34,876 nt of DNA from Candidatus Lokiarchaeota archaeon. GTDB lineage: Archaea > Asgardarchaeota > Thorarchaeia > Thorarchaeales > Thorarchaeaceae. The translations under genes and the position numbers were made by a program. Positions 18,151 to 34,090 of this stretch are shown piece after piece; the first letter of the stretch is position 1, and every line of letters starts with the position of its first letter. The stretch spans positions 1 to 34,876 of the forward strand of contig WJIL01000129.1 of the NCBI GenBank assembly GCA_014730275.1. Direction: 5' to 3'. The notes below the pieces were generated by a model. It searched no databases and was not told where the DNA came from. It saw only the letters and a list, made by a program, of their open reading frames with translations.

Positions 18151-18164
18151 GTTGTTCCCTCCAA

Positions 18165-20990
18165 TCAGCTGACGTACTGGATTTCCTTCGCGATATTTTT
18201 CTCCAAAGTCTCTTTGGTGATGAAGTAAGTTGTAATGACCACTGCTGCTATCGTAACCAAGAAGATGAGTCCGATAGTAGCAACCGGTACACTTGGAATC
18301 ACTCGGAGCCTCAGCCAGGGCAAGGAGATTGATGTGCCCAAGAAGCTCAAGGGGATCTGAATTGCAAATCCTGTTAGTACGAGACCAATCAATCCTCCTA
18401 TTGCTGCGGCAACCACCGTCGTAGCCAAGGAGTCTACGAGCATCGGAATCATAATGGATTGGCTTTCTGTCCCAAGGGCTCTCAGCACTGAAAGCGGCCG
18501 TCTTAGATTCTGAATCCTGACAACGGTGACTATTGCAATGCCTGCTGTCAAGTAGATTAATGAGAAAACTACATTCAGAGTATAGACGCCGTATATTGTC
18601 TGGGCACCTCTTGAATCGAGTGACTGATCAAGATTCAGGAGCCCTGAATCGATGCTTTCGAAAGAGGACTCGGATAGATCGGAAATTTCGTTCATGACCC
18701 TTGTGTAGTTGGCCCCATCATCCAGCTTGATATAGAAGCTGGAAACTTTGCTAGTATCGGTGCAGGTATGGACATAGTCCAGATTCATAATGGCAAACCG
18801 ATTCAGTTCGGGTTTTCCTGGGAAGTAGGTGGTTTCTATCCCATATTGACTCTGAAATGCTAGGATATCAACAATTTCACAATCTGACGTGTTCTGCCAG
18901 CTAGGGCCCTGCAAAGTGATTTCAATTTCGTTCGAATAAACTGGTGTTCTTCCAGAGATACTTGTCTCGTAATGATGAACTGGTTTGAACGAGGTAATCA
19001 CGTTTTGGTTGTTGAGTGACATCTGGTTCAGAGATTGGGCAGGGGTTTGGTCATTGGCAAAATAGTCTAACCAGAATGCTGTTTCAGCCCAAGCTTGGGC
19101 TTGGACACCAAAAATGTCGATTTCCTCTGTTACATATCGATAGCTACCATCCCATTGTGCTTGCCTGTATTCTACCTCACCGGACGTCTGAAATACAGCA
19201 GAGCCTTTTTTCACACCATCAATCTTAGTAATCTCATCTAGCATATCCAAGGTGACGTTGCTCATCTCTGGACGCACTCGAACAACAACATCTCCACCTG
19301 CCTCAAACATGCTTAGAGATCGAGTATGATTATAGCCTGTTTCTGCTGAAATGGAACAGAACAGACCGGCAGCAAAAACCAGACCAACAAACACAACCGC
19401 TATGGATTCACTCTTTTTGAACATCATGACGGTTCGTGACAACAAACGAGATCCGGGTGCATACTTCTCTGTTTTCAATCGAGAGACAATGTTCGCTTTT
19501 ACGTTTGGACCCCCTCTGGAGAGCAACCGTGCAAAACCCAAAACAAAGATGCCCATGAAGATGACTATAACAATGCTAAAGTACAGAGTTGCTCTACTGT
19601 ATCCAACTCCCGTATATCCGAACAAGGAAAACATTGGATACAAGAAGAAAGCCGAAATCCCGACAGCCGCAAGGTCAATGAAGGGATTGCCCAGATCACT
19701 TTCTTCCTCTAAGACTTCTTTTTCCAGCCATGCATGTGCTTCTTCCGGTGACATAAGAAGGGCTTGAACTGCTGTTGGAATGGATACAGCCACGCCGACA
19801 CCAAAGGCGAAAAGAAACACAGATGCAACAGCATCTTGTTCAAGGAGCAGAGTGAAACCAGCCATCCTTTCAAAACTGAACTCAAGTAGAGTACGAACTG
19901 AACCAGAGAGATAGGACGAAAGTAGGCCAACCAATACAGCACCGAAGCTTCCAATCAGTGCCACGGTGATGGCTTGCAACAAAACCCATTTGAAGGCCTG
20001 CCAGCCAGAAGCCCCTCTGGTTTTGAGAGTACCGACATTTTTTCTTCTTTGATCAGCGAGAAGTTCCGAATTATAGTAAACTAGCATGATTCCCATTGTG
20101 AGGGCGGGGACGGAAAAGGCCAAAGAAATCGATGTGACGGTTTGAGCCCATCTCGAATATGAAATGAGTGTGTCTTCCAGTTCGTAGTCGGATAGATAGG
20201 CATAGGGCAGGGTGTCCTGCTCTATCCGTTTCCCAACATCCTCAGCCCGATCCGCAGGAGAAATATCTGGATACGAGAGTATAGCAGATTCATCTAAATC
20301 TACCCATACAATATCAGACTGACTGACATAGCCCCTTGGTTCTAGCCGAGAGAAGATTTCATCCAACCCGTGCTTGGTCGTTAGCATTCGAAGCATTGAA
20401 GCCCCTTCTCCGGGAGAGTACCAAGACTGGCCGAAAAGACTGGTTTCGAATGTTCCAACAATGATGAAATCCTTTTCTATATCGATTCTTGTTCCATTCT
20501 CATAGATTCTCGCCTTAGCCGTAAAATTGTCCCCTAGGGATAAGCCATAATGCTCAAGGGTAGAAGTTTCAATGTAACACGAAGAATCGTTTAGATTGCC
20601 TATGCTGATCGTGATTTCGAAAGCCTTTGGAAACATTGAGAATGTGTTTTCAGAGAGTCCAAGATAGACATGTTCTTGATACATATATTCGTCGGCGTCC
20701 CAATCATAGGATCTTACCTTACTGAGGAGGTCGGCACCTTCTACGTCTTGCTGGTCCTCGATGATACCTTGGATGTCATCTGTTGTTGTTTCATTTTGTT
20801 CGTAGAATTGGTAGGACATTGCAACTTGCATATCAACTGAGATTTCTGTTGTCATCTCATTTAGCACGTCCGGCCGAATGCTGTCCATGTAGAACAAGAC
20901 ACCGCCCAAAACCCCTGCAGACAAGGAGAATACAATCAGTGTAGCAAGTACTTTTCGCTTATCTGATGATAATCTGGCTAACATGTACAT
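18165..20990 (-). CDS. FtsX/MacB-like ABC permease, 941 residues
   Basis: A large membrane protein with a duplicated FtsX core. It has an N-terminal helix (about 14-35) and a first extracytoplasmic domain (40-275) with N-glycosylation sequons. The first FtsX helix set is at about 283-412 (VGTLKTRGASGWQAFKWVLLQ is the FtsX coupling motif). Helices at 442-490 and 525-548 follow, then a second extracytoplasmic domain (550-800), and a C-terminal FtsX set at 803-926 with VLRALGTESQSI. FtsX-type permeases of the LolCDE/MacB class move or extract lipoproteins, lipids or peptides, or act as mechanotransmitters. The start is ATG 20990, directly after the upstream TAA, with GGAGGGG overlapping the upstream gene's last codons. 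It ends 14 bases before the AbrB-fused ATPase. Confidence 0.85.
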   Translation of the reverse strand: MYMLARLSSDKRKVLATLIVFSLSAGVLGGVLFYMDSIRPDVLNEMTTEISVDMQVAMSYQFYEQNETTTDDIQGIIEDQQDVEGADLLSKVRSYDWDADEYMYQEHVYLGLSENTFSMFPKAFEITISIGNLNDSSCYIETSTLEHYGLSLGDNFTAKARIYENGTRIDIEKDFIIVGTFETSLFGQSWYSPGEGASMLRMLTTKHGLDEIFSRLEPRGYVSQSDIVWVDLDESAILSYPDISPADRAEDVGKRIEQDTLPYAYLSDYELEDTLISYSRWAQTVTSISLAFSVPALTMGIMLVYYNSELLADQRRKNVGTLKTRGASGWQAFKWVLLQAITVALIGSFGAVLVGLLSSYLSGSVRTLLEFSFERMAGFTLLLEQDAVASVFLFAFGVGVAVSIPTAVQALLMSPEEAHAWLEKEVLEEESDLGNPFIDLAAVGISAFFLYPMFSLFGYTGVGYSRATLYFSIVIVIFMGIFVLGFARLLSRGGPNVKANIVSRLKTEKYAPGSRLLSRTVMMFKKSESIAVVFVGLVFAAGLFCSISAETGYNHTRSLSMFEAGGDVVVRVRPEMSNVTLDMLDEITKIDGVKKGSAVFQTSGEVEYRQAQWDGSYRYVTEEIDIFGVQAQAWAETAFWLDYFANDQTPAQSLNQMSLNNQNVITSFKPVHHYETSISGRTPVYSNEIEITLQGPSWQNTSDCEIVDILAFQSQYGIETTYFPGKPELNRFAIMNLDYVHTCTDTSKVSSFYIKLDDGANYTRVMNEISDLSESSFESIDSGLLNLDQSLDSRGAQTIYGVYTLNVVFSLIYLTAGIAIVTVVRIQNLRRPLSVLRALGTESQSIMIPMLVDSLATTVVAAAIGGLIGLVLTGFAIQIPLSFLGTSISLPWLRLRVIPSVPVATIGLIFLVTIAAVVITTYFITKETLEKNIAKEIQYVS

Positions 20991-23780
20991 TTAGACCCCT
21001 CCTCGGTAAGGGCCAGCTTCGGCCCAGTGTGCGTTCAAAGCTTCCTGAAGATTCACGCGAGAGTTTGTTACAGCCACAATGACAATCATGCCCACCATAG
21101 AAACCACAAAGAAGACGAGAATGGTAAGAAGGCTTATCCATGGGATAGAGGGGAATATGCCTACAGGGAATATGAAGTTGCTAGTGGAAATCGTTGCAAG
21201 TGTGTTTGCTATGAAGATAGGGGAGAACAGCAGAAGCAACATTAGGGCTGATAGTGTTATTATGAGCAACTCGGCAACCTGTGTTTTGATGACATCTATC
21301 GTCTCGGCTCCCATCGCTCGCAAGAGAGCTACTTCACGTTTTCGTGAGCGAACATCCTCGGCTGCGTAGACTGAGAACCCTCCAAACATAACAAGAACCA
21401 TGGCTGCTGTTGTCATTGTATCGACTGCGCGGTTCATACTGTATCTGGCTTGTTTGATATATTGGGAGAGTTCATATTCTACAGTTGTCCAGCCGTCGTT
21501 GGCGTACATGAAACCAATTCTCTCTGGATTCTCACTGACTGCGTTACCACAGCTATTCATGAGTTCCTCCGCTATCGCTGTGGAATTTGTGCCTTCATTG
21601 ACGTTTACACAAAGGACGCTACGTGCTGAACTAGTGAAATTAACCCCGCCTGCAAGATATTCTCTGTTTGCATATATGACATCTGTTCCGAAAGGCCGCT
21701 GGTAATAGGAATCGTGCTGGGTTTTCAAGAGACTTGCATCAGAAAGGCCTTTCACTATGCCGAGAACTGAAAACACATAGATTTTTTGACCTTCGTCTGT
21801 TTCGATTGATGCTCTCATGGAATTCCCCACAGCCAAATCGTATTCGTCAGCTATGTCGTTAGTTATTATGGCGCCATTCGGTGTATCCTCCAACTCCTCC
21901 ATCTTCTGGGCAAGTATGGCTGATTCATTCAACAATGTTCCTGTATAGTCATATCCTACTTGACCAAACTCGCTTGGATCGAAAGCTGCTAGACGTAAAT
22001 CTCCTCCATACTGTGTTGAGAGCATCACGTCCAAAACAGACAAGAGAGCCATTTTTTCGGTATCTGGATGAGCAGACACATTGTTGAAGAAAGCTTCCCA
22101 GTCTTCTGGGTGTTGTTCATCTAGATGAAATGTCATATCTCCCGCAAATGCGAAGCGGGCATGGTTCTTCTTGGTCATGGGCAATGATGTATCTATCACA
22201 GCCATGTTCCATGCCAAGCTTATGGCGAGTACCAGAACTAATATCGTTGGGGCTGCTGATGAGGCACTTTTTCCAACTCTTCGAACACCCACCGAAGCGG
22301 ACAGCTTTCCTACTGCTTTTTCAAACTCTCTGGATATTCGTGAAGAACCCTTTCTTAATGCCTTGATTGTCAGGCTGGCAATCGCTAGAAAGATAGCCAG
22401 AGGCACTACAGAGAGAATGAAGGAAAGCATCGGGTTAGTTTGAGCTTGGGCTCCAAGAGAGTACAAAGCTACTGTAATAAGAATCGATAACACCAGAACG
22501 ACCGAATCCCAACGGATAAGTCTCAGACCCTTAGCTAGCTTGGCAAGCTTGCCTTCACCTTCATCCACTGGCTCTTTAATTGCATAGATAACAAAGTAGC
22601 TGCCCAGCGTCATCATCGGAAGAATCATGCCAACCACAGCTGTTAGAATCAATGATTCAAGCGTAATAAGAAATGGCTCGGAAAAGAACAGGTTTGGTAT
22701 AAACTGAAAATAGCCGACAGCAGAGAGAGCTATTCTGCTAAGCAACACACCGAGTCCTAATCCCAATATGGTGCCAGAAGCTGAAAGAATCAGTATTTCT
22801 CGAATGATAATCCTGTCAGTATCTTGTTTTGAAGCTCCTCGAGCTTGGAGCATACTGGTCTCATACTCACGTTCATTCACATTGTATCGTATTGCAAGCA
22901 ACATTAAAAGAATGACAAGAAGCATGATCCCTGTCGACCGCACTAGCTGGCTCATCCTTGCACTGGCTTGCCAGTCTTTGTATTCCAAAAGTGCCCTACC
23001 TATGATATTGTTTACTCTATACTGCGAATACCCTTGCTGCTCATATTGTGGATCTAAGCTCTGCACTGCCTCCTCTATTCTTCTAACAAAGGCGATGGAA
23101 CTACTCACATCAAACGGTGTTACTGGGTCCCTGTTGATTTCGACGTGAACGGACTCCTCTATGTAGTAATTGTCATATCCTTCTGAGCCCACGACTTCGG
23201 GGAGGACAATGGCTATCGCGAAGTATGAACCATACCACCCAGGCAATTGCGAGGGGTGGTTTTCAAACAACCCGACGACGGTCATATTGATCCAATGTGG
23301 TTGTTCCACATCACTTCTGTAGTATGAGTAGTTTATTGTCTTGCCAATGGAAGCATTTAGATCGGTTGCTCTTTCAAATGCAATTGCGATTTCGGATGTG
23401 CTATTGGGATACCGGCCCGATTGTATTGAATAGACATCGGGAAACTCCTCGAGGTAGGTACTATCGATGTAAGCTATCTTGAGGTTGCTTGCATATCTTA
23501 AATCTCCTGACCTAAACCATCCTTCTCCTAAGGTTATCGCTGCAGCTTTCTGGATTCCGTCGATGGCTTCAATGTCGTCAACTTCTGCTTGGATATCTCC
23601 ACCTTCTAAAGACATAGCAACGGGCCCAATGTCCATGTAGCTTTCCCATTCATGAATCGAATAGGAGTCGACATAGACTGTTGTACCCATAGCAACTGCT
23701 GATGCTAGGCATAAACAAATCAGTGTTAGCCCTTTTCTTCTCAAGCTGTGAAATGCTTCGTAACCTGCAGGTACAGCCAA
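20991..23780 (-). CDS. FtsX/MacB-like ABC permease, 929 residues
   Basis: A paralogue-like partner of the adjacent 941-residue permease with the same plan: an N-terminal helix (about 17-36), a first extracytoplasmic domain, an FtsX helix set near 280-400 (MLQARGASKQDTDRIIIREI), helices at about 420-470 and 500-530, a second extracytoplasmic domain, and a C-terminal FtsX set near 785-910 (ALLRAMGAETIDVIKTQVAE). Sequence identity to the 941-residue protein is visibly low, so they are probably non-interchangeable halves of one transporter. The start is TTG 23780 with AAGGGGAAAG just before it, 12 bases after the ATPase stop. Its own stop abuts the next gene's ATG. Confidence 0.85.
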   Translation of the reverse strand: MAVPAGYEAFHSLRRKGLTLICLCLASAVAMGTTVYVDSYSIHEWESYMDIGPVAMSLEGGDIQAEVDDIEAIDGIQKAAAITLGEGWFRSGDLRYASNLKIAYIDSTYLEEFPDVYSIQSGRYPNSTSEIAIAFERATDLNASIGKTINYSYYRSDVEQPHWINMTVVGLFENHPSQLPGWYGSYFAIAIVLPEVVGSEGYDNYYIEESVHVEINRDPVTPFDVSSSIAFVRRIEEAVQSLDPQYEQQGYSQYRVNNIIGRALLEYKDWQASARMSQLVRSTGIMLLVILLMLLAIRYNVNEREYETSMLQARGASKQDTDRIIIREILILSASGTILGLGLGVLLSRIALSAVGYFQFIPNLFFSEPFLITLESLILTAVVGMILPMMTLGSYFVIYAIKEPVDEGEGKLAKLAKGLRLIRWDSVVLVLSILITVALYSLGAQAQTNPMLSFILSVVPLAIFLAIASLTIKALRKGSSRISREFEKAVGKLSASVGVRRVGKSASSAAPTILVLVLAISLAWNMAVIDTSLPMTKKNHARFAFAGDMTFHLDEQHPEDWEAFFNNVSAHPDTEKMALLSVLDVMLSTQYGGDLRLAAFDPSEFGQVGYDYTGTLLNESAILAQKMEELEDTPNGAIITNDIADEYDLAVGNSMRASIETDEGQKIYVFSVLGIVKGLSDASLLKTQHDSYYQRPFGTDVIYANREYLAGGVNFTSSARSVLCVNVNEGTNSTAIAEELMNSCGNAVSENPERIGFMYANDGWTTVEYELSQYIKQARYSMNRAVDTMTTAAMVLVMFGGFSVYAAEDVRSRKREVALLRAMGAETIDVIKTQVAELLIITLSALMLLLLFSPIFIANTLATISTSNFIFPVGIFPSIPWISLLTILVFFVVSMVGMIVIVAVTNSRVNLQEALNAHWAEAGPYRGGV

Positions 23781-23792
23781 TTCTTTCCCCTT

Positions 23793-24491
23793 CTATTCTA
23801 CGCCGACGATTTCTCCGTCTCTCATTCTATAGGTCTTGTCCATTTGTTTGCCTACTTCGGGATCGTGAGTTACAGATACTAAGGTTCCGCCTTCTCCTTT
23901 GGTGAGCTTGACAAGGACGTCGACGATTTCTTGTCCGGTTTGAGTGTCCAAATCACCGGTAGGTTCATCAGCTAACACAACCACTGATTTTGCTGACCCC
24001 TCTGGTTTGGCAAGAGCCCTTGCTATTGCAACCCGTTGCTGTTCGCCTCCTGACAACTCATCAGGTCTATGCTCTGCCCGTTCTGTTAAGCCTACAAGTC
24101 CTAGCAGGTGCTCTACTCGTTCCCTCCTCTGCTCTTCTTCTACTCCGGCGATGAGCAATGGCAGCTCCACATTCTCGTAAGCTGTAAGAACTGGAAGGAG
24201 ATTGAAAAATTGGAAAACGAAACTAATTTTGTCCCGCCTAATCCGTGTTAGTTCCTTTTCCGTCATTTCGGTGATATCGGTTCCATCAACGACAACGCTT
24301 CCCGTGGTTGGTTTGTCAAGTGCACCAATCATATTGAGCAGTGTTGTCTTGCCGGAACCAGAAGGCCCCATAATGGCAACAGCTTCGCCGCGCTTCACCT
24401 CAAGATTCACTCCACGCAGAGCTGGAACATCTACTTCACCCATATGATATATTTTTGAGACATCGGCTAGCTTCAGTATACTATCTTCCAA
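23793..24491 (-). CDS. ABC ATPase, LolD/MacB type
   Basis: A 232-residue ATPase with all motifs: Walker A GPSGSGKTT (42-50), Q94, LSGGEQQR (146-153), VVLADEPTGDLD (171-182, E176 catalytic) and H209. KPEGSAKS before Walker B is a short insertion compared with typical LolD. It is the first gene of a four-gene operon encoding ATPase, permease, permease and ATPase-AbrB, and probably pairs with the permeases to form an exporter or extractor. It starts at TTG 24491 (the upstream codons in frame run back to a stop without another start), with GGGAGTGGG 8-16 bases upstream. Unlike the other ATPase it has no C-terminal extension. Confidence 0.92.
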   Translation of the reverse strand: MEDSILKLADVSKIYHMGEVDVPALRGVNLEVKRGEAVAIMGPSGSGKTTLLNMIGALDKPTTGSVVVDGTDITEMTEKELTRIRRDKISFVFQFFNLLPVLTAYENVELPLLIAGVEEEQRRERVEHLLGLVGLTERAEHRPDELSGGEQQRVAIARALAKPEGSAKSVVVLADEPTGDLDTQTGQEIVDVLVKLTKGEGGTLVSVTHDPEVGKQMDKTYRMRDGEIVGVE

Positions 24492-24709
24492 GGGGGTTTC
24501 CCACTCCCGTTAATTCAAAATTGTCTACAGGTTGCCCTATTAGCTTTTCCTCTAACGCTTGAGCATTGGACTTCTCTTATTGTGTAAGGTGGGTGTTAGA
24601 AAGGAGTATTATCAGGAATTAAAAGCCAAACAATGAGTAGGAAAAAAAGAAGGTTTATGACTGAACAGCACATTTACGGACATATAACAATCACAGTGGA
24701 TGGGTCCAA

Positions 24710-25357
24710 ATGGTTCATGACATAATGGTCAATCGCTACGAGTTTTTCAGTTGGCGCGGATTCTTCACTGGTGCATCAATCATAGGCCTATCATTGATAC
24801 TACAATCCTTAATTGGTTTCCCACAGGTTTGGAATGAGCGTCCAATTCAGTTTGGCACTTCGATTCTGATTTCCTCAGTCATTGTTGGAACCGTCTGCGG
24901 TAGCGTGCTTGTTTTCTTGTTCCCGCCCAATCAGGATGTTATTGGCGTAGCCGGTTTGGGTAGTGACGATGTTTCTCAACATATCGCCCTATTCTTGGTT
25001 TTGCTCGCGTTGATGGAACCTGTTCTTTCCGGTTTCGTGTTTTTCTTTGAGTATTATGGACAAGATCCATTCGAGATGATTTGGGTCTTGGTCAGCTTTG
25101 GTGCAGTCAGTGCTGGCTTTGCATCTGCCATGTTTGACCGAACGAAAACAATAGCTCGAGATGTCCGAAATTACTTCGAAGATCATGAGGTACTTGACAT
25201 GACCAAGTTGGACTGGTTACAGGCAGTCGGACCCAGAGATGCTGCTTATCGAATGGGGATGCTTGGACGAGCCGCTGAAGAAATCGACTATGTTCGGGTT
25301 GTAGGACATCAAATGATCCAACTGAAAGACACAGAGAAAACTAGTTCCAATGAGTAG
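24710..25357 (+). CDS. Four-helix membrane protein with C-terminal cytoplasmic region
   Basis: A 215-residue protein with helices at about 17-37, 47-70, 92-113 and 121-142, then a hydrophilic C-terminus (143-215) containing KTIARDVRNYFEDHE and a segment LDWLQAVGPRDAAYRMG. The family is not recognised. It starts at ATG 24710 (ATG 24725 is an alternative). It is divergent from the ABC operon and converges on the zinc-finger gene. A conserved soluble tail after the helices could bind a partner, but nothing in the sequence names one. Confidence 0.7.
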   Translation: MVHDIMVNRYEFFSWRGFFTGASIIGLSLILQSLIGFPQVWNERPIQFGTSILISSVIVGTVCGSVLVFLFPPNQDVIGVAGLGSDDVSQHIALFLVLLALMEPVLSGFVFFFEYYGQDPFEMIWVLVSFGAVSAGFASAMFDRTKTIARDVRNYFEDHEVLDMTKLDWLQAVGPRDAAYRMGMLGRAAEEIDYVRVVGHQMIQLKDTEKTSSNE

Positions 25358-25376
25358 TATTATCAATCGTTTTCTC
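25334..25376. terminator. Inverted repeat at a convergent gene junction
   Basis: GAGAAAAC (25334-25341) and GTTTTCTC (25369-25376) are perfect 8-base arms around a 27-base loop. The loop contains the membrane-protein stop codon, and the right arm overlaps the stop of the zinc-finger gene. It ends in TTTTCTC on the plus strand. It is a weaker stem-loop candidate than the GC-rich ones. Confidence 0.35.
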
Positions 25377-25671
25377 AATGGCGATGATCTATGTGTGCTT
25401 GTAGCCCCTCTTCTGTCCACGCTACCCATGCACATTTTAGACATGTGAATTTCTTGCTTCCAAGTCCGAATCGTGGAGGAGATTTTTCTTCAAGCTCATA
25501 TATTGTACCGCCATACCCACTTCTTTTCTTTGTAACAACCTTGAACCGTTTGTCAAAACATTCCGAACAAATACAAAGACGAGATCTCTCTTCGTTTTTG
25601 AAGTTATCTTCCAAGGTCTTAGCTGGCTCAGGCGGGTCCATTTCCTTTCCACAGCTTTCACACCGAGTCAT
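25375..25671 (-). CDS. Small zinc-finger protein with C-terminal C2H2 finger
   Basis: A 98-residue protein. C4/C7 (CESC) and C35/C38 (CSEC, with C33 nearby) form a four-cysteine zinc site. C77-x2-C80, followed by x12 and H93, H96 or H98 (CLKCAWVAWTEEGLQAHIDHRH in part), forms a C2H2 finger with the expected Leu and hydrophobic spacing. It could bind nucleic acid or protein. The frame is open to TTG 25686, but ATG 25671 is preferred because CTATAAGG at 25696-25689 lies about 20 bases upstream, giving a leaderless message. C2H2 fingers are sparse in prokaryotes and more common in archaea and Asgards. Confidence 0.75.
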   Translation of the reverse strand: MTRCESCGKEMDPPEPAKTLEDNFKNEERSRLCICSECFDKRFKVVTKKRSGYGGTIYELEEKSPPRFGLGSKKFTCLKCAWVAWTEEGLQAHIDHRH

Positions 25672-25840
25672 TCTCTTCACAGCCAAGGCCTTATAGCGTG
25701 TTAAATGGCTATCTCTGATTTGACAATGGAAACCGGGGTATATGACTGTTCTTGGTTTCAGATTGACCAGTTGTGCTTTGCCTCTTGGTTCTTAGAATTC
25801 TGTCGTCCTCATGATAGCCCAATCTCTAAGTAATAATCAT

Positions 25841-27079
25841 TCAATCTTCGGAGACCGATAGCTCAGCAGCTATCTGAAAGAGCTTCTCAATGTTCTTATT
25901 TTCTACACAAGATGTTTCTAGAAAGGCAACGGGGTGGAATTCCTTTTCTTGACCAAGTTCAGTAGCCAGCTTCTCAGCGTACTCGAAGCCCTCCTCTTCG
26001 CCTACAAATTCATCAGACTTCTCTGATGCTTGCTCCACTCTTTTGTCATACTTGTTACCCGCGATAATAAGCGGGGGTAGGGTCTTTCTTGATATTGAAA
26101 GTTCTTTTATCCAGAAATTCAGGCTTTCAAAACTCCATCTATCACCTGCTGAATAGACTACTATGGCAACATCCGCGTCTCCATAGTATTCATTTCGCGG
26201 TATACGGTGACCTACAGCATCATCAAAAGACCATACATATAGATTCACTCGGTATTCATTTGTTCTGAACAGTTTCTTGTATACATAATCCTCTTCGCTT
26301 GCTTCTAATTCGCCCGTTTGGATTAGCGACTTTTTGCCTACATTCTCTTCTCCGATTAGAAGACATTTTCTGTCGACAAGTGGTTTTATCATGTGTTGGC
26401 TTGCGATGTCGGGTTCTTCTGTGCCCGTTTTTACAGCTTCGGTGGTGGGTGTTCCCTCAGCTTCGGTCACGCCTGTTTCTTCCGCCTTCATTTCTATTTC
26501 GGGCTGTGTAGATTCTATGTCATTTTCAACTGGTTTGTCCTGAATGCTTGATTGCTTTGGAAGGCTTGCAGATGACGCAGCGATTTCAGTTTGAGACTTC
26601 AGCTTGACCTGAATGCCACTACTAGTTTTCTTCTGATGAGTTCCCTTTGGTGATCGAAAGGTATCACTCATCGATTCTACAGCTGCCAATGCTTCTGATA
26701 TGTCATCTACTTCTTTACCTGCAACACGGTGCTTCTTCAGGAGTTTTTCAGAAGGGGTTACAGGTTCGGCTGTAGATTCTTTGGTTTCCTTTTTGGGTAT
26801 TAGATCCGAAGGTTCTTCTGCTGCTACTGCTGATGATTCTGTTGAAATCTCTTCTGACCGCTGCAGCTCCTCTTCCACTCCAATTTTCCGAAGCACGTCT
26901 TCGATATGCCCTGGTGGAAATCTCTTATCGAAAAAACGGAAATAGGATTTGACCTCCTTTACTATCTCTTCGAAGGACTTCGATTCAGTTGGGATTTTCT
27001 TCTTGATTCTGCCTTCGTCTCGCAGCTCGACGTAACCTGGCAGTAGAGCTAACGTAACCGTTGTTCCTGGCACCTTCAT
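25841..27079 (-). CDS. Ras/Rab-like small GTPase with long N-terminal extension
   Basis: A 412-residue protein in three parts. Residues 1-75 are a compact domain of unknown family (MKVPGTTVTLALLPGYVEL, then FEEIVKEVKSYFRFFDKRF). Residues 76-230 are a low-complexity, Ser/Thr/Glu/Lys-rich, probably disordered linker. Residues 236-410 are a Ras-superfamily G domain with P-loop GEENVGKKS (243-251), YYGDADVAIVVYS and RWSFESLNFWIKEL (the Rab/Ras helix-3 pattern), G4 NKYD (342-345) and G5 ETSC (388-391). The G3 motif, normally WDTAGQE, reads WSFDDAV, losing the DxxG residues that handle the gamma-phosphate. GTP binding is thus likely but normal hydrolysis switching is doubtful. No C-terminal prenylation motif is visible. 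Such GTPases are expanded in Asgard archaea. It is divergent from the phosphoribosyltransferase gene. Confidence 0.85.
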   Translation of the reverse strand: MKVPGTTVTLALLPGYVELRDEGRIKKKIPTESKSFEEIVKEVKSYFRFFDKRFPPGHIEDVLRKIGVEEELQRSEEISTESSAVAAEEPSDLIPKKETKESTAEPVTPSEKLLKKHRVAGKEVDDISEALAAVESMSDTFRSPKGTHQKKTSSGIQVKLKSQTEIAASSASLPKQSSIQDKPVENDIESTQPEIEMKAEETGVTEAEGTPTTEAVKTGTEEPDIASQHMIKPLVDRKCLLIGEENVGKKSLIQTGELEASEEDYVYKKLFRTNEYRVNLYVWSFDDAVGHRIPRNEYYGDADVAIVVYSAGDRWSFESLNFWIKELSISRKTLPPLIIAGNKYDKRVEQASEKSDEFVGEEEGFEYAEKLATELGQEKEFHPVAFLETSCVENKNIEKLFQIAAELSVSED

Positions 27080-27266
27080 AGTGGCAATAACCTCGTGAAC
27101 ATTCTAGTTGAGCAAGTTGGGTTAGCGCCTGACAACATCGTTCATGGCAACAAGTAGTTGTGCCCCTATATATTGTCTGCCTATACAAACCCATCTAAGC
27201 TGTTACCTTCGTCTTAACCCAAAGAAATATGACCCATGCACATCACCATGATATTGGTTGAGCTCA

Positions 27267-27833
27267 ATGACAGACGAGGAAATTGACTTCAGAGATTATG
27301 TTGAAGTAATTAAGGATTGGCCCGAAAAAGGGCAAGCTGTTGCTGACATCAGTCGACTGCTTGAACACCCTACTGTATTTCATGAAGCAGTCGTCGCTCT
27401 CGCAAAACCCCTTGTTGAGATGCAGCCAAACAAAGTTGTTGGCATTGAGCAGAGAGGTCTGGCACTGGGTAGTGCTATTGCGTATTACCTTGGTTGCGGG
27501 ATTGTTCCGGCTAGATCTATTGCATATCTTGAAGAGGACTACAGCCGTCCCGTTGAATGGCTCCCATCAGATAGATTTGCAGATAAGCGACTGGCTTTGG
27601 TGAGTGAATCAATTGACCCCGGTGATCGGGTCGCGATAGTTGACGACTGGCTAACGCAGGGTACGACAGTATTGGCTGTCGCTAAAATTCTAGAGAAGCT
27701 CGATGCGACTGTGGTCGGTGTTGCATGTGTGATTAACAACCTTTCGGAGACCAGAATGAAAATGCTGGGTCGTCCTGAGGTTCACCAGCTCATCCGCAAT
27801 CTGAAGAGTGATGTGCTCAACCCAGGGCATTAA
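27267..27833 (+). CDS. Adenine phosphoribosyltransferase-like PRTase
   Basis: A 188-residue type I phosphoribosyltransferase. EVIKDWPEKGQAVADISRLL resembles the APRT N-terminal hood (IRDVPDFPKPGI-x-F-x-DI-TPLL). VVGIEQRGLALGSAIAYYLG is the APRT-type flexible-loop/PPi strand, and VAIVDDWLTQGTT (122-134) is the PRPP-binding loop with D126/D127. The loop usually ends ATGGT; here it is LTQGT. It would join a purine base to PRPP, as in purine salvage, but archaeal APRT homologues sometimes have altered or regulatory roles. Start ATG 27267; a TTG at 27258 would add three residues. A stem-loop follows the stop. Confidence 0.8.
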   Translation: MTDEEIDFRDYVEVIKDWPEKGQAVADISRLLEHPTVFHEAVVALAKPLVEMQPNKVVGIEQRGLALGSAIAYYLGCGIVPARSIAYLEEDYSRPVEWLPSDRFADKRLALVSESIDPGDRVAIVDDWLTQGTTVLAVAKILEKLDATVVGVACVINNLSETRMKMLGRPEVHQLIRNLKSDVLNPGH

Positions 27834-27850
27834 TCAGAAAAAAAATCAGT

Positions 27851-27878
27851 GATAGGGACTCTTCTATGAGCCCCTATC
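27851..27878. terminator. Stem-loop between convergent apt-like and fadD-like genes
   Basis: GATAGGG-A-CTC pairs with GAG-C-CCCTATC around the loop TTCTAT: ten pairs with one A/C mismatch. It sits 18 bases after the PRTase stop and 10 bases before the end of the opposing gene, and an AAAAAAAA run precedes it (T-tract when read on the minus strand, after the hairpin). A bidirectional terminator is the simplest reading. Confidence 0.65.
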
Positions 27879-27887
27879 CTATATTGT

Positions 27888-29558
27888 CTATTCTTCTTCT
27901 CTCAGTTCTCGTCTCAGGATTTTGCCGACCTGTGTCTTAGGCAATGTGTCTACGAATTCTATATCTGTTGGCACTTTGTAGGCTGCCATCTTGTCTTTGC
28001 AGAACTTGCGGATCTCATCCAGAGTGGCTTGTTCACCAGGTTCTAGAATGATGAATGCTTTCACAGTCTCTCCTCTTGTCTCATGTGGGACTCCCACAAC
28101 TGCCACTTCTTTCACCTTTGGATGCTCAAAGAGTATCTCTTCCACATTTCTAGGCCATACTTTGTAACCGCTAGCGTTGATGAGATCCTTCTTCCTATCA
28201 ACGATGTATGTCCAACCCTCTTCATCCATTCGTGCTATATCCCCGGTGCGCAACCATCCATTCTCCTTTAGCACATCATCTGTTTCATCTGGTCGGTTGA
28301 GGTAGCCTTGCATAACCTGAGGCCCCTTCACCATGAGCTCGCCGACCTCACCGTACGGGAGCTCTTTCGTGTAGTCTTCGAGGTCTACGATTTTGCTGTC
28401 AGTACTTGGGAATGGTAGTCCGATAGAGCCGATTGTGCGAAGCTCCTTGTCCAATGGATTGGCGTGGGTTACTGGTGAAGCTTCGGTCAAGCCGTAACCC
28501 TCAATGATGATTGAATTGGTTGCGGCTTCGAATTTCCTCGTAACCTCTGCAGGTAATGCCATTGCACCTGCAATTGAGAGTTTGAGCGATGTTATGTCGT
28601 ACTTGTCCACTTCCTCGAATGAGTAGATGGAAATGGCCAGTGTTGCAACTATGGGGAAGAATGTTGGTCTCAGTTTGTCCATTTGCGATAGCAAATTCGA
28701 GGTGTCTCTAGGATCTGGTAGAAGCAACATGCCACATCCCCACGACATTGCCAGGTTCATAGATACGGTTTGACCGAATATATGCTGAAGTGGCAAAGCT
28801 GCAACAAACAACTCCTTACCTCTCTCCGCCATCCATTCCATCCATGCAGAACACTGGGCAACATTTGCTTTGAGATTGTCATGAGTCAGCATTGCTGCTT
28901 TCGGGATGCCTGTTGTCCCACCAGTGAATTGATACACCGCTATGTCGCTCGTAGGATCTATCTCAATCTCTGGCGATTCTGGAACTGTGTCTTCCATGAA
29001 GTCATTCCAGAGAATATCTCCGTCTCGCAGGGGTGGTACTTCCTTCACCTTGCTTCTGTAGACAATCTTGGATGCTAGGACTCTCTTAATCCATGACATC
29101 ATGTCCCAAGCTGCGGTAACGATAGCTTTTTCGAGATTGGTTTCTGCTCTGACTGTCTCCACAACATCATAGAAGTAGTTCAATGTCACTATTGTTTTAG
29201 CTCTTGTTCCTTGTAAGTAAATCCTGAGTTCCTTGGGCATTGCCATCGGATTAACAGGAGTTACAGTAGCTCCTGTTTTCAAAGTCCCATAATAGGCTAT
29301 CACAAATTGTGGGCAGTTGGGCAGCATAATTGCTACTGTGTCGCCTTTCCCAATCCCCATTTTGGATATGCCATTTGCAAAGCGATCAACCAGATCACCA
29401 AGCTCGCGGAACGTGATTTCAATACCTTCGTAATGCAATGCAACATTATCAGGAAATTCCTCTATTGCTTTATCGAGGCTTTCCCAGAGCGGCCCCTCAG
29501 GAATTTCGATTTCCTTTGGTGTGTCGCCTACGTAATTATCATACCATGGTCTTTCCAT
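27888..29558 (-). CDS. fadD: Long-chain acyl-CoA synthetase-like AMP-forming ligase
   Basis: A 556-residue ANL-superfamily ligase, the normal length. It activates carboxylic acids to acyl-AMP and then acyl-CoA. TGGTTGIPK (212-220) is the AMP P-loop, GYGLTEASP (354-362) the A5 motif, WLRTGD (435-440) the A7 motif, YIVDRKKDLINASGYKVWPR (451-470) the A8 hinge, and K546 in KTQVGKILRR the catalytic lysine. The best class match is the FadD-type fatty acid ligases (also medium-chain). A strong GGAGGAGAT lies six bases before ATG 29558. Upstream is a palindromic element shared with the 6934 region. Substrate chain length cannot be read from the sequence. It converges on the PRTase gene. Confidence 0.9.
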   Translation of the reverse strand: MERPWYDNYVGDTPKEIEIPEGPLWESLDKAIEEFPDNVALHYEGIEITFRELGDLVDRFANGISKMGIGKGDTVAIMLPNCPQFVIAYYGTLKTGATVTPVNPMAMPKELRIYLQGTRAKTIVTLNYFYDVVETVRAETNLEKAIVTAAWDMMSWIKRVLASKIVYRSKVKEVPPLRDGDILWNDFMEDTVPESPEIEIDPTSDIAVYQFTGGTTGIPKAAMLTHDNLKANVAQCSAWMEWMAERGKELFVAALPLQHIFGQTVSMNLAMSWGCGMLLLPDPRDTSNLLSQMDKLRPTFFPIVATLAISIYSFEEVDKYDITSLKLSIAGAMALPAEVTRKFEAATNSIIIEGYGLTEASPVTHANPLDKELRTIGSIGLPFPSTDSKIVDLEDYTKELPYGEVGELMVKGPQVMQGYLNRPDETDDVLKENGWLRTGDIARMDEEGWTYIVDRKKDLINASGYKVWPRNVEEILFEHPKVKEVAVVGVPHETRGETVKAFIILEPGEQATLDEIRKFCKDKMAAYKVPTDIEFVDTLPKTQVGKILRRELREEE

Positions 29559-29576
29559 TGTTGTATCTCCTCCAAC

Positions 29577-29601
29577 TAACTTGAACCTAACTTAGTAGTT
29601 C
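29577..29601. promoter_or_regulatory. Operator-like element before the fadD-like gene
   Basis: TAACTTGAAC (29577-29586) followed by CTAA and AACTTAGTAGTTC (29589-29601, AACT-nnnn-AGTT arms). TAACTTGAAC and CTTAGT also occur together, in the same order on one strand, at 6950-6934. It lies 19-43 bases before the fadD-like start, downstream of a TATA-like GGATAAATTA. This is a suitable place for a repressor sensing fatty acids or acyl-CoA (inference). Confidence 0.3.
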
Positions 29602-29754
29602 TATGTTTCCCCTAATTTATCCTTTTGGATGAAAAGTAGGCAACTCGAATGACATTGATAAGAAAAATGGTCAGAATCCATCTGGGAGCGCAAATGTGGA
29701 GCGATGAGACGAGCTGCAGTATGCAATATCTCTTGGTCAATAACCAGATACTAC

Positions 29755-30969
29755 CTAGAAGCGCAATGAATTCTTAAGAACAACGTATAGGGTTCTCGCA
29801 ACGAGTCTGGTGACATTAAGGCTAGCGACTTCGGATTCTGACATTGCATCACTAACCATGTCTTGAATCTCCCGGTCTTCCGCCCCAATCTTGAATAGTG
29901 TCTCCGTGAATACACTCGTAAACAGCTTCTGTGCAAAGAGCATTGATGACATGTCATTTCCAATTTTGTCTTCCCATATGTGCTGGTAGGCGTCTAGACT
30001 GTTTTTACCGTATTCTTCGTTGGTTATGCATCTACTGACAATGGCAGCAGCGATTCTACCGGCTTCCATTGCATAGAGAATCCCTCCTCCTGTCAGGGGG
30101 TTTACCATTCCAGCCGAATCTCCGACGAGGAGACAACGATCCTCCACGAAGGAATCTATAGTTCCCCCAGTAGGTACAAGAGCCCCCCTGCCACTAGGAA
30201 TGTCTATACTGTTGGGGAGCAAATTTTGACGAGCGAGATGTTTCAAAAATGACTTGAACGTTCCCTGCATATTGTTTGCACAATTCGCTTTGATACCCAC
30301 ACCAACGTTAATCGTGTTGGTTTTCGGAAAAATCCAACCATAACCTGGTCTTCCAGAGAGATTTGCAAAGAAATGGTATTCACCTTCACTTCCATATAGA
30401 TCGATGATATCATCCTCTTCAGCTGGTATTTCTGCCACCCTACACGCTGTTATCGCATCTTGAGGCCAGCATGTGTTAAGGCCTGTCTCTCTTGCAACTA
30501 TACTATTTACACCATCAGCGCCAATAATGATTTCTCCCGAAATTGTATCACCCTTCGAGATTTGTACTTCGACACCTTTGTCTTGAATTGATAGATTCTT
30601 TACCCTCTTACCTGTCAAACAATGTGATCCGGCATCATGAGCAGTCTCGAAAAGTGTGTTATCGAATTTTGAGCGAGGAGCGACAGCCATTCCTGCCCTG
30701 CCTTCAAGCGTGATTTCTCTGCTTGGCGAATGAAGGACTCCGACATTCAAAATACGTTCCAAGAACTCGTCTTTCCGCACGGCGAGATATGGAAATTCCT
30801 TGAAGATTGCGGGGGAGAAACCACCACCACATGGTTTGTCTCGGGGAAAGGTGGCTTTGTCAATCAAGCAAACTTCGTAACCCATTTCCGCAAGATATCT
30901 CGCTGTAGTTGCACCTCCAGGTCCTGCTCCGACAACGATAGCATCGAACATGGGTGTCATATTGTGCAT
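29755..30969 (-). CDS. Geranylgeranyl reductase-family FAD protein
   Basis: A 404-residue flavoprotein. FDAIVVGAGPGGATTARYLAE holds the N-terminal GxGxxG FAD site (14-19), CGGGFSP (47-53) is the conserved Cys-containing GGR motif, GADGVNS (150-156) and GDSAGMVNPLTGGGI (283-297) are the second FAD motif and isoalloxazine/pyrophosphate region, and GYGWIFPK (209-216) is the YGW-FPK substrate motif. The family reduces geranylgeranyl chains of archaeal lipids (digeranylgeranylglycerophospholipid reductase) or of related isoprenoids. The exact substrate is not certain, as Asgards often have several paralogues. Starts at ATG 30969, 30960 and 30951 are all in frame and precede the motif; none has a clear ribosome site. 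It has its own promoter region shared with the divergent gene at 31073. Confidence 0.88.
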   Translation of the reverse strand: MHNMTPMFDAIVVGAGPGGATTARYLAEMGYEVCLIDKATFPRDKPCGGGFSPAIFKEFPYLAVRKDEFLERILNVGVLHSPSREITLEGRAGMAVAPRSKFDNTLFETAHDAGSHCLTGKRVKNLSIQDKGVEVQISKGDTISGEIIIGADGVNSIVARETGLNTCWPQDAITACRVAEIPAEEDDIIDLYGSEGEYHFFANLSGRPGYGWIFPKTNTINVGVGIKANCANNMQGTFKSFLKHLARQNLLPNSIDIPSGRGALVPTGGTIDSFVEDRCLLVGDSAGMVNPLTGGGILYAMEAGRIAAAIVSRCITNEEYGKNSLDAYQHIWEDKIGNDMSSMLFAQKLFTSVFTETLFKIGAEDREIQDMVSDAMSESEVASLNVTRLVARTLYVVLKNSLRF

Positions 30970-31072
30970 GCTCTATGGTGGGTATTTCACGTTGATGGTG
31001 GGTGCTCATGTCCACAAATGGAATATACATAAGATGCGGCTTTGACTAGGAAAGTAATGGATTTGCAGTTCT

Positions 31073-32653
31073 ATGGCAGAACGAATAAAGAATGGGATTG
31101 CTGGTGCAACCAAGACGGTACAAGGGAAACGGGAGAATCTGCGAAATCGCATATCACAATATGATGGAGCAGAGCAAGCTATTCATCTCTTGATTTCGGT
31201 AGTTCTGGCAATCAACACGGTCTTGATGCTATTCACTTTGATTCATGTTATCGGATGGTTGCTGATTGCAGGATTGCCTCTTCTAGATTCTCTGCCCTTG
31301 GTGCTTTACGTCGTTCCCCTTCTCATCATCCTGCCTTCTCTAGTTTATTCCTATTACACTTCTCGAAGTGCAAATGTTAACCTAATCGTGACAATTATCG
31401 AATTGGTCATCTTCGCGCTATTGACGAATCTGGTTCGAGGATTTCTGATCCTGATATCGCTGAATATGGTTGCTGTTCTCTTCATGCTCGTTTATGGTCG
31501 GTTTGGATTCCAGGGGAGTCTAAAAGATTTGGGCAAGAAAGGTATTGCCTGGTTCATATTCATGAATCTTCTCGGGCTCGCAATGCCAATAGCGACCCAT
31601 GCCATGGGGCGGAATCCGATAGCATCCGTTTCAGCTTCTGACACCGTTCCATTGCGCTTTTCTGTCTCTGTAGATGAGAACGTGTCCTCCCTTCAATCAC
31701 ATTTGGATTCCATACAATCGAATGATTTTAGCTTGGATTTGAAGGTACAAACTGGTGCTATGAATTGGTACCAACGAACTATCAACTGGCTTAATCTGCT
31801 AAATACTACAGATATGAACCATAGTATAACTCTCTCAGCTAATCGTGAGTACTATTTTCAGCTTAGCAATCACGAATTCGGATCCGCTCAGCTGCTTGAT
31901 TTGGTCTTCGAAAACTACTATACCGTCTTGAATGAGACCTTCCATAGAATCGATTTCACTTCAGCTTACAGAAAGCCAAATATAATCTATCTGGACATGA
32001 AAGTGTCTTCATCTGAATGGTCTTTATTGTTCTCAAGTATACGCGCTGTGGATTTTGGAGCTTTTTCGGGCATTATTAGATCTATGCTTGAATCATCCAA
32101 TCGTAGCATAATTCAAGAGTGGACAAGCAAATTGACCAGCTTGGCTGAATCATTTGGTGTCTCACTTGGGCTGGTGGTTGAGCCCTTCGTCATGGACGAC
32201 AGCATGGACGGGGATGATAACACAATGAGAGTTTGTGGTTTAATCTCTGACACTCTGAGTTGCTGGGATTCAATCGATGTGAGCTGCAATAGAACCCTTT
32301 TTTCCAAAGCGATGACCGGCGATGTGGGTGAATATTTCCTTTATTCCTACTCCAGAACGCTACCTTCTATTACCTATTTTGATTCGATTAGAGTGAGTGA
32401 ATCTGGCAAGGACCCGTATTCTCAGATGGAGATACTTGCCAATGATATTGTCATTGCTTCTAGTGGTACACCACGATGGATTACAGTTGAATCGCTAACT
32501 TCTATTGTTTCATCTTTTGGCGAGAATGCAGTCCAAGATCTTAGCGAAGGAATCAGCAGCATCCAGGAAGTATCAGTTACATATACATTCAGGATATTCG
32601 CTTTCCGAGTTGTATTCCTTGCTATAGATGCTTTCGACCCGATATTCTTCTGA
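31073..32653 (+). CDS. Polytopic membrane protein with large extracytoplasmic domain, unknown family
   Basis: A 526-residue protein. Residues 36-178 contain about five hydrophobic helices and a short basic N-terminus (KTVQGKRENLRNR). Residues about 180-510 are a soluble, probably extracytoplasmic domain with NxS/T sequons. Alternating strand-like and helix-like segments (LSLDLKVQTGAMNW-like, IIYLDMKVSSSEWSLL, GVSLGLVVEPFVMDDSMDGD, PSITYFDSIRVSE) suggest a TIM-barrel-like or Rossmann-like fold; a glycosidase-type role is only a possibility, since no catalytic signature is visible. The last residues (FRIFAFRVVFLAIDAFDPIFF) are hydrophobic. It starts at ATG 31073, divergent from the GGR gene. 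A stem-loop follows the stop. Confidence 0.72.
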   Translation: MAERIKNGIAGATKTVQGKRENLRNRISQYDGAEQAIHLLISVVLAINTVLMLFTLIHVIGWLLIAGLPLLDSLPLVLYVVPLLIILPSLVYSYYTSRSANVNLIVTIIELVIFALLTNLVRGFLILISLNMVAVLFMLVYGRFGFQGSLKDLGKKGIAWFIFMNLLGLAMPIATHAMGRNPIASVSASDTVPLRFSVSVDENVSSLQSHLDSIQSNDFSLDLKVQTGAMNWYQRTINWLNLLNTTDMNHSITLSANREYYFQLSNHEFGSAQLLDLVFENYYTVLNETFHRIDFTSAYRKPNIIYLDMKVSSSEWSLLFSSIRAVDFGAFSGIIRSMLESSNRSIIQEWTSKLTSLAESFGVSLGLVVEPFVMDDSMDGDDNTMRVCGLISDTLSCWDSIDVSCNRTLFSKAMTGDVGEYFLYSYSRTLPSITYFDSIRVSESGKDPYSQMEILANDIVIASSGTPRWITVESLTSIVSSFGENAVQDLSEGISSIQEVSVTYTFRIFAFRVVFLAIDAFDPIFF

Positions 32654-32659
32654 GCTTCT

Positions 32660-32677
32660 GCTGAAACAGTTTTCAGC
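32660..32677. terminator. Stem-loop at a convergent gene junction
   Basis: GCTGAAA (32660-32666) and TTTCAGC (32671-32677) form a perfect 7-base stem around CAGT, just after the stop of the membrane protein and overlapping the stop of the minus-strand gene. Confidence 0.5.
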
Positions 32678-33599
32678 TTGAGCTTGGTGGTCGGACGTAT
32701 ACTTCAAAGACACCGGTCCAGATTTCGCTGCTTGTGCCCATTTTGATGAGTAGATTCTTGTCGAATATCACACCAGCGGGTTTCTCTTCACTTTTCTTCC
32801 AAGTATCTGCAAACATAAGAGCATGCACATTGTTTTGGAAATCTTCAGTCATTCGCTCAATAATACCGTCGATATACGCTTGGTCAATCCCCTTATCTGA
32901 GAGATCAACCGTTGATCGAAAGAGTCGTTCTTCTTGAATAGCTCCTTCCGCTTTGTCAAACGTGTATCCCAAACCCCCGACGAAATGAAAGACGGCATGA
33001 GCGACTCTTGGTTGGGTCAGGGTCAAGATGGTATTATCAGAAAGGATAATGCAGTCTGGATCTGCGGCATCAAAGGGTATTGATGCGGCTTCTATCGAAA
33101 CTTCATTCATCCCAAGTTGCTCTCCAAGAAATTCACGGAGTAGAAACACTCGCTTATCCATTCTGAAGCCATTGATGGCTCCGATATGAATCACGTTCTT
33201 CGCCTTTCTAACCAACACATCAATTATGCGCTGACATTTTTGAAGGAATCTCATCTTCTGATTTCTGCTTTCCAGAACATTCTCAGTGTACATAATCGCC
33301 TTTACGAACTCAATATCTCTAATATCGGACACAATTTTTCTACTGAATAGTGTCCCCTGATCTGTTTGAATCAAGCCCTCTCTAGAACCATATTCCATCG
33401 GTATGGCATTTCCAATATGAACCTGAACCGGCTGCTTAGAATTCTTGGATTTAAAAAATACACCAACATCTATCTCATCGTGCGGGATATCGATGAACTG
33501 ACGTACAAATGGACCGTCGGGTACAATCTCGCGGTCTTCTGCCTTCCTATAAATATCGCTGTATTTCGAAAATAGATCCTTCTGCGACACTACTCTCAC
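32673..33599 (-). CDS. Soluble hypothetical protein of 308 residues
   Basis: A protein with no membrane helix and no signal peptide. It starts at GTG 33599 (GTG 33590 is an alternative); a GATAAAG lies about 10 bases upstream. It is acidic to neutral with alpha/beta-looking alternation: PVQVHIGNAIPMEYGSREG, VIHIGAINGFRMDKRVFLLR, CIILSDNTILTLTQP, VAHAVFHFVGGLGYTF. DISPDRIDQAYIDG-like helices follow and the C-terminus ends YVRPPSSS. I recognise no family or catalytic motif. The gene stands alone between a convergent membrane-protein gene and the divergent zinc-module membrane protein. Confidence 0.65.
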   Translation of the reverse strand: MRVVSQKDLFSKYSDIYRKAEDREIVPDGPFVRQFIDIPHDEIDVGVFFKSKNSKQPVQVHIGNAIPMEYGSREGLIQTDQGTLFSRKIVSDIRDIEFVKAIMYTENVLESRNQKMRFLQKCQRIIDVLVRKAKNVIHIGAINGFRMDKRVFLLREFLGEQLGMNEVSIEAASIPFDAADPDCIILSDNTILTLTQPRVAHAVFHFVGGLGYTFDKAEGAIQEERLFRSTVDLSDKGIDQAYIDGIIERMTEDFQNNVHALMFADTWKKSEEKPAGVIFDKNLLIKMGTSSEIWTGVFEVYVRPPSSS

Positions 33600-33761
33600 T
33601 TCACTTTATCTTAATGATTCGTCCCTCATATCTGTTCCTTCTGTTTTCTTGTTATTGCTAAGCCGTAATCTATAAAGCCCGGTAACCGCGAGAATGCTTC
33701 GTGAAACAACTAGCGGCTCTCTTCCGGTTGTTTCCGTCAGATACTTGGAGATTGCTATTAT

Positions 33762-34058
33762 ATGGAACGGGAAAAGAAAGGGATTCTGTCTGCTGTTCTT
33801 GGTTCTGTGCTATTTGTCTTGTCTTTATTCGTAGTAATGCCTATGGAAATGTTGTATCTGCATTCTCTCACTCTGATGTTTGTAGCTGTTGTTATGATTG
33901 GTATTGGTACTGCAGTAGCCAAGGGCTTCGATCGATCTCTGGACATCCGTTCATCAAATTGCTACTACTGTGACGGAAAAGGTATGATTGAAACAGATAG
34001 CGGAACCGAGACATGTCCAAGATGTGGTGGCACCGGTAAGAGTCCTGAGGATGAGTAG
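33762..34058 (+). CDS. Two-helix membrane protein with DnaJ-type zinc module
   Basis: A 98-residue protein. Residues 8-27 and 32-53 are hydrophobic helices. Residues 67-92 contain two CxxCxGxG motifs, CYYCDGKG and CPRCGGTG, the repeat of the DnaJ central zinc domain, which binds one zinc and can act as a protein disulfide or protein-binding module. With only two motifs (DnaJ has four) it forms a single half-site, so one zinc at most. The C-terminus is acidic (KSPEDE). The start is ATG 33762 with GGAG 11 bases upstream and a TATA-like CTATAAAG at about 33670. GDPD follows 32 bases later on the same strand, perhaps in one operon. Where the zinc module faces is not decided by the sequence; the basic loop FDRSLDIR before it suggests the cytoplasm. 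Confidence 0.75.
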   Translation: MEREKKGILSAVLGSVLFVLSLFVVMPMEMLYLHSLTLMFVAVVMIGIGTAVAKGFDRSLDIRSSNCYYCDGKGMIETDSGTETCPRCGGTGKSPEDE

Positions 34059-34090
34059 ACTATTCCAAGTTACTTGGGAGGGCCGAAGTA

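Follow-up and report, generated by a model that had tools for sequence, protein, structure and literature searches.

Locus organization and domain architecture

The window, i.e., the whole 34,876-nucleotide stretch of DNA that was analyzed, comes from a genome of 3.64 Mb (99.5% complete). The gene studied here lies on its reverse strand next to the following neighbors (residue numbers refer to the encoded 412-residue protein).

25841..27079 (-): complete gene with an ATG start; 412 aa, comprising an N-domain, a tether, and a degenerate Ras-like G domain
26858..27079 (-): N-terminal domain, residues 1 to 74, starting with MKVPGTT; β-β-β-α-α in the AF2 model
26384..26857 (-): tether, residues 75 to 232 (158 aa), mostly of low confidence in the AF2 model
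26654..26704 (-): helix motif of the tether, residues 126 to 142, DISEALAAVESMSDTFR; family form D-I-x-x-A-L-x-x-V-E-S-x-S-D-S-F-M
26576..26614 (-): second tether motif, residues 156 to 168, IQVKLKSQTEIAA; family form I-x-I-x-L-x-G-x-E-E-I-x-A
25844..26383 (-): degenerate Ras-like G domain, residues 233 to 412, from Pfam Ras and structural comparison
26330..26353 (-): G1/P-loop GEENVGKK; Lys16 retained, Mg2+ ligand Ser17 replaced by Lys
26255..26323 (-): switch I region, residues 253 to 275, without the G2 Thr35
26213..26233 (-): replaced G3, WSFDDAV, residues 283 to 289; W, F, D, and A in 35/35 orthologues
26102..26140 (-): R-W-S-F-x-S-x-x-F-W-x-x-E, residues 314 to 326, family specific and invariant
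26045..26056 (-): G4, NKYD, residues 342 to 345, intact
25907..25918 (-): G5, ETSC, residues 388 to 391, intact
27258..27833 (+): divergent neighbor, predicted adenine-phosphoribosyltransferase (APRT)-like; its family adjoins this gene at 34 loci
25375..25686 (-): downstream same-strand gene for a zinc-finger-like protein; its family is present in 31 of the compared loci

The protein belongs to the Ras superfamily by its Pfam Ras match (residues 238 to 405; E value, 2.8e-14, exceeding the curated cutoff) and its Ras-like fold. The nearest solved structures by sequence were Rab21 and Rab9 (about 5e-7), and the modeled G domain matched RhoA, Rab11b, REM2, and Thor-Rab with VIA Z scores of about 21, covering Rho, Rab, and Ras. 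The host genome contains 29 Ras matches, and this gene is among the weaker ones. An NCBIfam Csl4 match (0.013) was rejected, as it falls on the low-complexity linker and far under the cutoff. The G motifs picked out by a sequence-only reading of this DNA (GEENVGKKS, residues 243 to 251; NKYD, residues 342 to 345; ETSC, residues 388 to 391) are all present, and WSFDDAV (residues 283 to 289) does stand in place of WDTAGQE. The C terminus (...AAELSVSED) has no Cys and thus lacks the prenylatable residue of Rab proteins. The same reading was correct that a lipid tail is absent; that this is unusual is not supported, since Thor-Rab, a crystallized canonical relative, is also without one and a missing tail is the norm among Asgard small GTPases (PMC10933270). 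Pfam detected no roadblock or longin domain (as attached in Rag/Gtr-like GTPases) in the 412-residue protein, and neither fold was among the PDB rows listed for the AF2 N-domain.

AF2 modeling with 38 natural sequences gave pLDDT values of about 95 for the N-domain, about 97 for the G domain, and <50 for the tether. The linker of approximately 155 disordered residues that had been proposed corresponds to 158 residues mostly with pLDDT of <50, but residues 118 to 145 and 156 to 168 within it are conserved. A tether helix is modeled at residues 127 to 142 (pLDDT, about 75), A130, L131, and V134 of the helix motif are invariant in 34 orthologues, and the motif shows no amino-acid change relative to the sister species. 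A paralogous family (family B, described below) has the counterpart L-E-L-S-x-A-L-x-x-x-D-x-L-K-D-x-F-L-S-P. The two conserved tether motifs look like short linear binding motifs.

The neighborhood belongs to a block (positions 17278 to 34822) that is syntenic across Thorarchaeota genera and includes genes for an FtsX-type ABC transporter, a membrane protein, the zinc finger protein, the GTPase-like protein, the APRT-like protein, a CoA ligase, an FAD reductase, two unknown proteins, a DnaJ-like zinc protein, and GDPD. Since the neighborhood is conserved as a block, adjacency to any single gene is weak functional evidence. The ABC ATPase in this block (17278 to 18150, reverse strand) is an unusual fusion in which residues 243 to 281 at the C-terminal end are MraZ/MazE-like (AbrB-type; Pfam MraZ, 1.3e-4; MazE, 1.5e-3; both slightly below the cutoff).

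The N-terminal domain and its relatives

The proposed N-terminal domain of about 75 residues is borne out by approximately 74 residues that fold confidently; modeled alone, the domain gave the same β-β-β-α-α arrangement (pLDDT, 92). It also lacks a known family, as had been claimed: Pfam returned no match for the N-domain of the window protein. At an E value of ≤0.01, the N-domain profile matches 42 of the 47 genomes of the host's Thorarchaeota family, in comparison with 0 of 180 other Asgard genomes. The five family genomes without a match are 52 to 87% complete. A DUF1882 match (0.0047) in 4 of 28 relatives was weak and was taken as chance. Searches of the PDB yielded no convincing relative by profile (best E value, 0.076, a kinase; not significant) or by Foldseek (best E value, 0.19), the best VIA Z score was 5.7 (under the tool's common-arrangement level), and structure comparison gave weak rows (Z, 4 to 5) to a pre-60S protein.

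The domain also occurs free, as a protein of about 79 aa that matches the N-domain in a profile-profile comparison with 96.9% probability. In several Thorarchaeota its gene lies tail to tail with a glycyl-tRNA synthetase gene and adjoins a UspA-like gene; the host genome is among them (G000:C95:30971-31186, which is L144:4457-4693), and further loci are L118 to L121, L145, and L149 to L151. From a subthreshold lead, we traced a wider Asgard family of 130 to 150 aa (L146:936-1331, reverse strand, and L153 to L182) with an N-terminal K-[VI]-P-G-T-x-Y (KVPGTRY...) and a heptad-like C-terminal helix. It has no convincing Pfam assignment, and in one Asgard family the gene sits between those for elongation factor 2 and ribosomal protein uS10. 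This wider family matched the combined N-domain profile with 76.9% probability (column shuffles, ≤1.2%; reversed profile, 2.6%), but the N-domains of the tethered proteins alone or the free proteins alone gave only 12 to 16%. Homology between this coiled-coil family and the N-domain thus appears likely, short of proven.

Loss of switch residues in a conserved Thorarchaeota family

In a translated search, full-length matches came from most of the genomes in the host's family (identity of 78% for the sister species and about 35 to 44% for others), and outside it the only matches were generic Ras ones; a scan of named genomes gave 42 loci. By our tally of profile rows, orthologues of the window protein (family A) occur in about 40 of the 47 genomes and the paralogous family B occurs in 12. 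The orthologous loci come from Thorarchaeota metagenome-assembled genomes, of which submitters labeled two Lokiarchaeota and two simply "archaeon"; the matching genomes (e.g., G013 and G019) nevertheless belong to the family of the host genome.

We compared residues, in Ras numbering, among 35 family A, 10 family B, and 23 canonical Thorarchaeota GTPases. All catalytic and Mg2+-binding residues are present in the canonical controls, apart from one with Glu at position 61. In family A, Lys16 is retained in 35/35 members, Ser17 in only 3/35 (there is no Thr; the others have R, G, E, K, H, Q, A, or L), and Thr35 is effectively gone, with the switch I alignment being uncertain. At the G3 site, the Trp56 position is W throughout (35/35), the Asp57 position is never D (S in 31, L in 3, and C in 1), position 58 is Phe and the Ala59 position is Asp in every member, Gly60 is found in none, and Gln61 is replaced by Ala in all 35. 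The window protein accordingly has none of the canonical switch residues (i.e., Ser/Thr17, Thr35, Asp57-x-x-Gly60, and Gln61). Guanine recognition is preserved (NKxD in 35/35 and the G5 Ser in 34/34), as expected of a guanine-specific G domain. W283, F285, D286, and A288 are invariant although the median pairwise identity of the G domains is 52%. Because this W/F/D/A replacement is found in all aligned orthologues, the family A G3 reads as a different invariant motif (W-x-F-D-x-A) and not as mere decay.

Family B is more degenerate: its G3 motifs are WTF[PE]xS-like, the Asp of WSFD is gone, and Lys16 is absent from 9 of the 10 members, with the architecture retained; NKxD (9/10) and G5 (10/10) persist. 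Family B genes (L122, L124, L125, L126, and L127) adjoin a leucine-rich-repeat (LRR) protein gene, and a gene for a large secreted-looking protein is also nearby in several of these loci. Short N-domain open reading frames (about 124 to 138 aa; G028:C50 [L122] and G014:C120 [L123]) lie near or apart from family B and are possibly truncated or third-type members. These paralogues, the losses of Ser17 and Thr35, and the free N-domain proteins had all escaped the sequence-only reading.

In a maximum-likelihood tree of G domains, families A and B group in a single clade (100/100), whose long stem measures 2.2 substitutions per site. The clade lies inside the Thor Rab-like GTPases (support for the larger group, 95/81), where its neighbors are a short canonical paralogue and a canonical family that carries C-terminal extensions. 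With so long a stem, the exact sister is unsure. Between the window protein and its sister-species orthologue, dN/dS values (simple NG86) are 0.06 for the N-domain, 0 for the tether helix, 0.15 for the G domain, and 0.27 for the rest of the tether. These observations read as one ancient event in which the switch was lost, with purifying selection acting on the family.

As a separate observation on family A, the aligned start codon is CTG at 13 of 37 loci (L036, L037, L043, L044, L046, L050, L052, L061, L063, L064, L067, L068, and L073), TTG at 16, and ATG at 7. Each CTG start has an upstream Shine-Dalgarno-like GGAG/GAGG, and often there is no nearby in-frame ATG/GTG/TTG. Conserved CTG start codons are thus possible in this family.

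A putative nonswitching scaffold and its comparison with known systems

In Ras chemistry, a domain should not cycle once it lacks its Mg2+-coordinating residues and those linking the gamma-phosphate to the switches. Since these residues are gone, we consider it very likely that the G domain is nonswitching, and the chances that it still binds a guanine nucleotide appear evenly balanced. By its residues, the window protein fits the definition of a pseudoGTPase, and we do not assign it to the Rab, Rag, or RGK proteins. It is probably a nonhydrolyzing pseudoGTPase scaffold or adaptor that is ancestral to one Thorarchaeota family, and we favor a class (ii)-like form in which the nucleotide would be permanent or absent; the scaffold role, which we infer and find plausible, is the weakest step. 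The G domain would neither cycle nor hydrolyze GTP and would be fixed in one conformation, perhaps with Mg2+-free guanine nucleotide. The Asp that invariably replaces Ala59 would disfavor a gamma-phosphate and hence favor GDP rather than GTP. The G domain would serve as an unchanging surface for protein binding, with other partners bound by the N-domain and the linker motifs, making the protein a bridge. Because the guanine motifs are frozen, a nucleotide or a guanine-shaped pocket may be part of the fold, but the retained NKxD and G5 could instead serve fold stability. We tentatively suggest that a Rab-like GTPase became a constant reader of Mg2+-free guanine nucleotide, coupled by the conserved tether motifs to a small domain that Asgard archaea also employ in free form; this would be an archaeal scaffold system that does not depend on GTP cycling. 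The base-recognition half of the pocket would have been retained and the switch half swapped for the invariant WxFDxA.

Several alternatives bear on this proposal. An odd G3 motif by itself could reflect a pseudogene, a frameshift, or an assembly error that destroyed DxxG. We reject this scarcely credible explanation: no close homologue has an intact DxxG, the sister-species genome (L007, 78% identical) has the identical WSFDDAV, all 35 orthologues share W-[SLC]-F-D-x-A, and low dN/dS values in all domains (0.15 in the G domain) argue against a pseudogene. Motif loss alone is no proof of inactivity, since RGK proteins have a divergent G3 and are listed with catalysis retained (PMC5593906, PMC4081519). 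The window protein could likewise be an unusual but active, RGK-like (class iii) GTPase in which, for example, the Asp of WSFD substitutes for Asp57 in binding Mg2+ and a GAP or partner provides catalysis. Retained Lys16 and guanine motifs, the invariance of the new G3, and the ranking of REM1/REM2 with the top structural matches (Z, about 21; 26 to 28% identity) are consistent with such activity, but all three Mg2+ ligands and Gln61 were lost together, and family B lost Lys16 and the WSFD Asp as well with its architecture unchanged; we judge an active enzyme improbable.

Two further explanations are compatible with a scaffold. The G domain could be purely structural and bind no nucleotide, like those of CENP-M or p190RhoGAP pG1 (class i); this is a subcase of the nonswitching scaffold, so that its probability overlaps that of the preferred explanation. 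The loss of Mg2+ and phosphate contacts and the missing Lys16 in 9/10 family B members make it a real possibility, if short of a probable one, given that hardly any member of either family has lost NKxD or G5, whereas the G motifs of p190RhoGAP pG1/pG2 are degraded (PMC5593906). The protein could also be a noncycling subunit that pairs with a canonical Thor small GTPase (e.g., the coiled-coil-tailed L098 family) or with LRR proteins. The tree position near that canonical family and the adjacency of family B and LRR genes in the loci read point in this direction, but no colocalization of family A with a canonical gene was seen, and we find such a partnership rather doubtful. The nonswitching scaffold remains our preferred explanation, and the earlier suggestion of a novel N-domain joined by a long tether to a pseudo-switch GTPase is supported by its conservation in approximately 40 genomes, purifying selection, and the AF2 models.

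Asgard archaea, which carry many small GTPases, are central to models of the origin of eukaryotic membrane signaling. A near-universal Thorarchaeota family with one ancient switch loss would show that nonswitching scaffolds arose from Ras-like domains outside eukaryotes. It is also a warning that Pfam-based counts of "Asgard GTPases" include pseudoenzymes. The open-licence papers searched contained no account of archaeal pseudoGTPases, so that this probable conserved nonswitching scaffold is of a kind undescribed for archaea in those papers.

Among known systems, Thor-Rab (PDB 7EZB/7EZD/7EZE; Thorarchaeota SMTZ1-45) binds Mg2+-nucleotide and hydrolyzes GTP (PMC10933270). The window protein resembles it in G-domain fold (Z, 21.2; rmsd, 1.8 to 2.2; about 155 residues), lineage, and the absence of a lipid tail but lacks Ser17, Thr35, Asp57, Gly60, and Gln61 and has an added 232-residue N-terminal extension. 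The canonical coiled-coil-tailed Thor GTPases (L098, in the same genome) are its nearest canonical G-domain relatives in the tree, but these have intact G1 to G5 and a long C-terminal coiled-coil-looking extension instead of an N-terminal domain. RGK GTPases (REM1, REM2, Rad, and Gem) share with it an N-terminal extension, no lipid tail, a replaced G3, and a place among the best structural matches. The RGK G3 is DXWE, and these proteins are listed as retaining activity (PMC4081519, PMC5593906), whereas the window protein has WSFD, with Asp57 absent entirely, and thus lacks the RGK motif. Eukaryotic pseudoGTPases are a recognized kind for which scaffold-like roles have been proposed (PMC5593906). 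Like CENP-M, p190RhoGAP pG1/pG2, fungal dynein LIC, Rnd, and RGK, the window protein has a Ras-like fold minus at least one G motif; it differs in being archaeal, within a Thorarchaeota GTPase clade, with intact G4/G5, a new N-domain, and tether motifs. The Entamoeba pseudoRabs EhRabX3 and EhRabX10 are similar in having Rab-like G domains with G2 missing and altered G motifs. In EhRabX10, G4 and G5 are altered (PMC8514894), whereas the window protein retains both and belongs to a conserved, tethered multidomain family.
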